Assembly: GCA_003247225.1 (NCBI GenBank)
Contig: QKAK01000146.1
Location: 1-43,563, forward strand
Reading direction: 5' to 3'
DNA: 43,563 nt
Origin: Spirochaetota bacterium
GTDB lineage: Bacteria > Spirochaetota > Spirochaetia > Treponematales > UBA12059
Position numbers and translations under genes: made by a program. Shown here piece after piece: positions 30,153-30,222 of this stretch (positions are counted from its first letter, which is position 1; every line of letters starts with the position of its first letter). A model generated the notes under the pieces. That model worked only from the letters and a program-made list of their open reading frames with translations. It was not told the origin of the DNA and did not search any database.

Positions 30153-30183
30153 TTGACCTTAAAGCGGCTTGAGGCTTTACGCT
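30153..30183 (+). promoter_or_regulatory. MerR-type promoter with SoxR-box-like dyad
   Basis: TTGACC (30153-30158) and TACGCT (30178-30183) are separated by 19 bp, the over-long spacer typical of MerR-activated promoters. Between them CCTTAAAGCGGCTTGAGG (30157-30174) is an 18-bp dyad whose arms CCT-[T/C]-AA and TT-G-AGG mirror each other. It strongly resembles the E. coli soxS operator (arms CCTCAA/TTGAGG), and its first CC overlaps the -35 in the same way. It lies 39 bp beyond the MerR gene and 40 bp before the flavoprotein ATG. Confidence 0.75.
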
Positions 30184-30222
30184 CCCGAACGCGGACGAAC
30201 GAGCCGCAAGGAGCGAAAGGAA

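Follow-up and report, generated by a model that had tools for sequence, protein, structure and literature searches.

A BmrR-like MerR regulator and a conserved long-spacer promoter paired with an extracytosolic flavin reductase in spirochaetes

MerR proteins activate promoters with spacers of 19–20 bp by kinking and untwisting the spacer DNA (PMC9909328; PMC1526738). The sites of CueR and CadR-PbrR are 21 bp long and odd-centred, with the centre 7 bp from the -35 element and a spacer of 19–20 bp (PMC5045206), and the CueR signal has been given as ACCTTCCC-5-TGGAAGGT (PMC1526738). The SoxR box is an even-centred 18-mer, CCTCAAGTTAACTTGAGG (PMC4411124). Here we analyze a promoter of this general kind in a contig of a Spirochaetota bacterium; the whole stretch analyzed, 43,563 nt, is called the window. 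Judged from the DNA, the promoter features needed for untwisting by a MerR protein are present and conserved, and it is probable that the long promoter is untwisted by a MerR activator responding to a small molecule, which would thereby control an extracytosolic electron-acceptor reductase.

The features of the locus are collected in Table 1. The regulator and reductase genes are co-directional in the window and lie 108 bp apart, with 38 bp from the end of the regulator gene to the -35 element and 39 bp from the -10 element to the reductase ATG. The hexamers, the 19-bp spacer and the 18-mer lie exactly where the initial annotation had placed them, and the promoter at 30153–30183 is real, because spirochaete genomes contain the trio of regulator, promoter and enzyme at 21 places.

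Table 1. Coordinates of the regulator–reductase locus in the window
Feature	Position	Strand	Basis or remark
MerR-family regulator gene, 273 aa	29293..30114	+	Pfam MerR_1/MerR, AlphaFold model, orthologues
-35 element TTGACC	30153..30158	+	sequence; TTGAC[C/T] in the same place in 21/21 pairs
Promoter spacer, 19 bp, TTAAAGCGGCTTGAGGCTT	30159..30177	+	19 bp in 21/21 pairs
-10 element TACGCT	30178..30183	+	sequence; TANNNT in 21/21 pairs
Putative operator, odd-centred 17-bp dyad CTTAAAGC-G-GCTTGAGG	30158..30174	+	centre 30166 = spacer base 8
Even 18-mer of the initial annotation, CCTTAAAGCGGCTTGAGG	30157-30174		replaced by the odd-centred 17-mer 30158-30174
Likely ribosome-binding site AAGGAG	30208..30213	+	sequence; inferred
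Lipoprotein flavin reductase gene, 653 aa	30223..32184	+	Pfam, NCBIfam, PDB sequence matches, motifs

The window genome (a 3.38-Mb assembly) encodes three full-length regulators of the window type, each adjoining a reductase of the FMN_bind/FAD_binding_2 type. Orthologous regulator–reductase pairs also occur in other species of the genus, and regulator orthologues are 87% identical in genome G005 and 59% identical in G007. To keep ordinary MerR proteins out, the wider family was searched for with a profile built on the C-terminal domain of the regulator only; of 394 genomes in the order 12 contained it, as did two further genomes from a different family within the class. Every one of the 21 regulators that this profile retrieved from Spirochaetota stands beside a FMN_bind/FAD_binding_2 reductase, and every one of these reductases has TTGAC[C/T]-N19-TANNNT within 200 bp upstream; all other spacer lengths from 13 to 25 together gave a single match for the same 21 reductases, at 14. 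These pairs are not independent, since they come from only some ten lineages and each regulator is physically linked to its operator. Genome-wide, TTGACY-N19-TANNNT matches 10 times in 3.38 Mb and the reversed control pattern 8 times; three of the 10 matches precede the three reductases that adjoin a regulator of this family. In its context the promoter is far beyond chance. The initial annotation had proposed a MerR-type promoter belonging with the adjacent regulator, a reading that it would have given up had there been no conservation beside orthologues; with conservation in all 21 pairs, that reading survives.

As a control, we inspected the flanks of the 27 MerR loci that the first search had given: three lay beside such a reductase, including the family members L005 and L010, and the remaining 24 had no such reductase in the flanking DNA examined. 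Locus L006 (G096), with the site TTGCGC-N19-TAGAAT, is a probable 22nd pair. A scan with the single protein found relatives in Spirochaetota bacterium USDV_maxbin.089 and HGW-Spirochaetae-3. Plasmids gave partial matches to the regulator, none of them over 80% of the query; the five matches listed cover only the HTH, and four of the five are annotated as cadR. A genome search with the 22-mer, allowing up to three mismatches, matched the window site only and so gave no sign of a wider regulon for this operator.

Several related arrangements were also seen. At L104:2599-9336 and L105:1413-8144 (G663, G665) one regulator is clustered with three different FMN_bind/FAD reductase lipoproteins, and at L080:8141-10001 (G107) a type-C-like regulator–reductase pair is directly followed by a second reductase, which shares 57% identity with the own-genome type B reductase. 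A reductase gene related to that of the window, at L039:4949-5416 (G003:C92), stops after the FMN_bind part (132 aa); it has a degenerate 19-bp-spacer site upstream (TTGACC TTATAGCCTTTAGAGGCTT TAGGAT) and a type-C regulator as its neighbour, and the G003 genome yielded no regulator of type A. It looks like a decaying type-A unit. At L089:1501-2404 (G000:C29), TTGACT-N19-TACTAT closely precedes the gene of a secreted protein that has two FMN_bind-like repeats, and there is no MerR gene within the 3 kb examined; this site may be due to chance, because it is AT-rich.

The regulator begins with an N-terminal winged HTH and continues, as is typical of the MerR family, into a dimerisation helix that forms a coiled coil; it scores over the Pfam cut-offs for MerR_1 (3.7e-12) and MerR (3.1e-8). 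No Pfam family detects the effector domain. The AlphaFold model (pLDDT 89.4) matches full-length BmrR with a Foldseek E of about 1e-11 and a VIA-align Z of 13.8 over 257–260 residues at 4.0 A, and also matches the N-termini of CueR, MtaN, SoxR and BmrR. The BmrR/GyrI-like C-terminal domain that the initial annotation had assigned is thus supported by the predicted structure, and small-molecule binding of the BmrR type is predicted from it. The regulator falls below the cut-offs of the metal regulators CueR (39.4/147.4 bits), CadR-PbrR (36.5/151.45 bits) and ZntR (43.2/167.95 bits).

To locate the operator we scored symmetry over 19 sites. It peaks at spacer base 8, where 110 of 171 pairs are symmetric, compared with 46 +/- 6 in shuffles (maximum 68) and 59 at the second-best centre. 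The conserved dyad is an odd-centred 17-mer around 30166, inside the 19-bp spacer as in MerR-family promoters and with the geometry of CueR/CadR-class operators, and it takes the place of the 18-bp SoxR-like dyad first described. In the window itself 6 of 8 pairs are symmetric, a value that spacer shuffles equal in 0.5% of cases at a fixed centre and in 5.5% at any nearby centre; on its own this dyad is weak to modest evidence. In G007 it is weaker still (4/9 pairs), and the operators of group C are barely symmetric (2–5 of 9 pairs). Distant relatives show the conserved form more clearly: CTTCAAGC-N-GCTTGAAG, with arms CTTnAAG and CTTGAGG that are 3 bp apart. At L104, where the regulator relatives are 28% identical to that of the window, the type-A palindrome CTTCAAGC-G-GCTTGAAG is perfect, and this makes the site in the window a degenerate form of that palindrome. 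Other clear odd-centred examples are ACCTGTAAGC-T-GCTTACAGGT (G208) and ACCTCGTGG-CGA-CCACGAGGT (G178a).

A second possible dyad in the window, TAAAGC-N8-GCTTTA at 30160–30180, is centred at spacer position 11.5 and overlaps the -10 element. It is kept in all three type-A sites (6/9 pairs each). Its centre is not outstanding over the whole set, at 59/171 pairs compared with 110/171, and for that reason we gave this dyad no further weight. Perfect or near-perfect odd-centred dyads with a 19-bp spacer were also observed immediately before the start codons of two other MerR genes themselves, ACCCTGACG-TTG-CGTCAGGGT at L013:1840-1870 (minus strand) and ACCCTCACC-TTG-CGTGAGGGT at L017:1440-1470 (plus strand), a placement that suggests autoregulation.

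Operator distances are correlated with distances between the regulator HTHs when reductase distance is controlled for (partial Mantel r 0.54, p 2e-4), but not with reductase distances when HTH distance is controlled for (r -0.05, p 0.67). Operator sequence therefore tracks the HTH and not the reductase, in a set where the pairs are non-independent and regulator and operator are physically linked. Genome G092 provides a natural regulator swap: its reductase is 75% identical to that of the window, yet both its regulator and its operator are of the B type, and over the scored positions the operator is 86% identical to that of G178a and 21% identical to that of the window. The B-type regulator of G092 would be expected to act on ACGTGGCGACCACGCGG rather than on the operator of the window. 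The swap also shows that a reductase type is not strictly tied to one regulator type, and this weakens the case for the enzyme's own substrate as the ligand.

The reductase carries a lipobox (LVGC, residues 23–26), a FMN_bind domain with the flavinylation motif DTVSGAT (residues 99–105) and a FAD_binding_2/flavocytochrome c domain (TIGR01813, 349 bits for a cut-off of 285). Its PDB sequence matches are urocanate reductase and fumarate reductase flavocytochrome c, and ApbE is encoded in the window genome. Domains, lipobox, flavinylation motif and catalytic motifs are those of a flavinylated extracytosolic FAD reductase and agree with the extracytosolic, respiratory-type reductase of the initial annotation. 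At one position of the substrate pocket a Met (QLM) aligns with His in fumarate reductase (QAH) and with Tyr in UrdA (QSY), so that neither fumarate nor urocanate can be assumed as the substrate. Known chemistry of the family suggests that the acceptor is probably another unsaturated carboxylate.

We propose that the regulator binds the odd-centred dyad inside the over-long spacer of the reductase promoter, and that a cytoplasmic small molecule, most likely the electron acceptor of the enzyme or a related compound, binds to the BmrR/GyrI-like domain. The ligand-bound dimer would then kink and untwist the spacer, RNA polymerase could engage both the -35 and the -10 element, and the reductase would be transcribed from about 30190. 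Positioned as a lipoprotein outside the cytoplasm, the enzyme would then reduce an organic electron acceptor, which is probably an alpha,beta-unsaturated carboxylate. The mechanism is the canonical MerR arrangement.

Binding between the -35 and -10 elements would suit repression as well, and MerR proteins are also repressors (PMC9909328). The regulator might thus act mainly as a repressor on the same operator, relieved by the ligand, but a pure repressor does not need a 19-bp spacer, and the invariance of this length in 21/21 pairs makes such a mode of action unlikely. One could also regard the site as incidental and the reductase as expressed by read-through from the promoter of the regulator gene, given that the two genes are co-directional here with 108 bp between them and that the window dyad is degenerate. 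However, the reductase keeps the 19-bp promoter upstream of it even in group C, where the two genes are divergent, and in G007 the promoter block is kept while the DNA upstream of the block has diverged; we consider read-through very improbable.

The SoxR label raises a different alternative: the operator might truly be of the SoxR type, and either a redox-sensing, SoxR-like protein would read it or it would be shared with a SoxR encoded at another place in the genome. The right half, CTTGAGG, is indeed a half-site of the SoxR box (PMC4411124), and a 19-bp spacer is compatible with SoxR promoters too. Even-centred 18-bp symmetry, however, reaches 6/9 pairs in the window and falls to 4/9 and 3/9 in its two orthologues, and over all 19 sites it amounts to 56/171 pairs compared with 110/171 for the odd centre. 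The regulator scores 18.4 bits with the SoxR family profile (cut-off 116.9), and its Cys residues (48, 110, 176 and 213 only) are not clustered, confirming that the SoxR [2Fe-2S] Cys cluster is absent, as had been noted from the start. No protein of the window genome, an assembly with about 5% missing, passes the SoxR cut-off. This alternative is already largely refuted, and we give it almost no credence. The SoxR label for the window site is wrong: the similarity of the arms to the soxS operator holds for the shared CTTGAGG half-site but not for the rest of the box geometry, and in place of a SoxR-like operator used by a non-redox MerR protein, we find a site with the odd CueR/CadR centre at spacer base 8.

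Untwisting activation by a ligand-responsive MerR protein thus remains our preferred reading. The regulator subfamily appears to be undescribed, with an unusual target class, and in the open-access literature searched we found no description of FMN_bind/FAD reductases in association with MerR regulators. We see an even chance that this is a BmrR-type subfamily of dedicated acceptor sensors for the extracytosolic respiratory reductases of spirochaetes, each with its own operator code. If true, the MerR untwisting switch would extend from defence against drugs, metals and oxidants to the choice of respiratory electron acceptor. The substrates of many flavin reductases of anaerobes are not known; because the regulator is tightly linked and probably ligand-responsive and the promoter is well defined, a simple reporter assay could identify the inducer and hence the likely substrate. 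HTH–operator recognition by MerR proteins could also be studied directly on the 21 pairs, among which there is one natural regulator swap.

With BmrR of Bacillus subtilis, and with EcmrR and BrlR, the window regulator shares the full-length fold (MerR winged HTH, coiled coil, GyrI-like domain) and, as predicted here, long-spacer promoter activation. It is only about 14% identical to BmrR, however, its effector domain differs in not being recognised by Pfam, and it adjoins an extracytosolic reductase whereas BmrR controls a multidrug transporter. The operators of CueR and CadR-PbrR are alike in their 19-bp spacer, odd centre and 7 bp from the -35 element to the central base, but their half-site is ACCTTCC where the window family has a GCTTGAAG-like one, and their regulators have a short metal-binding C-terminus instead of a BmrR-like effector domain. 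SoxR and the soxS operator have in common with the window the MerR family, the 19-bp spacer and the CTTGAGG half-site; the arms of the SoxR box are 4 bp apart and those of the window family 3 bp, and the even-centred 18-bp box, the [2Fe-2S] Cys cluster and the oxidant response of SoxR were not found here. Unlike UrdA and flavocytochrome c3 fumarate reductase, the window reductase is a lipoprotein, carries a covalent-FMN-type domain and shows no heme domain in Pfam, while its FAD fold, the Arg of ..RD.. and the HHTMGG and NRLGGN motifs align with those of both enzymes.
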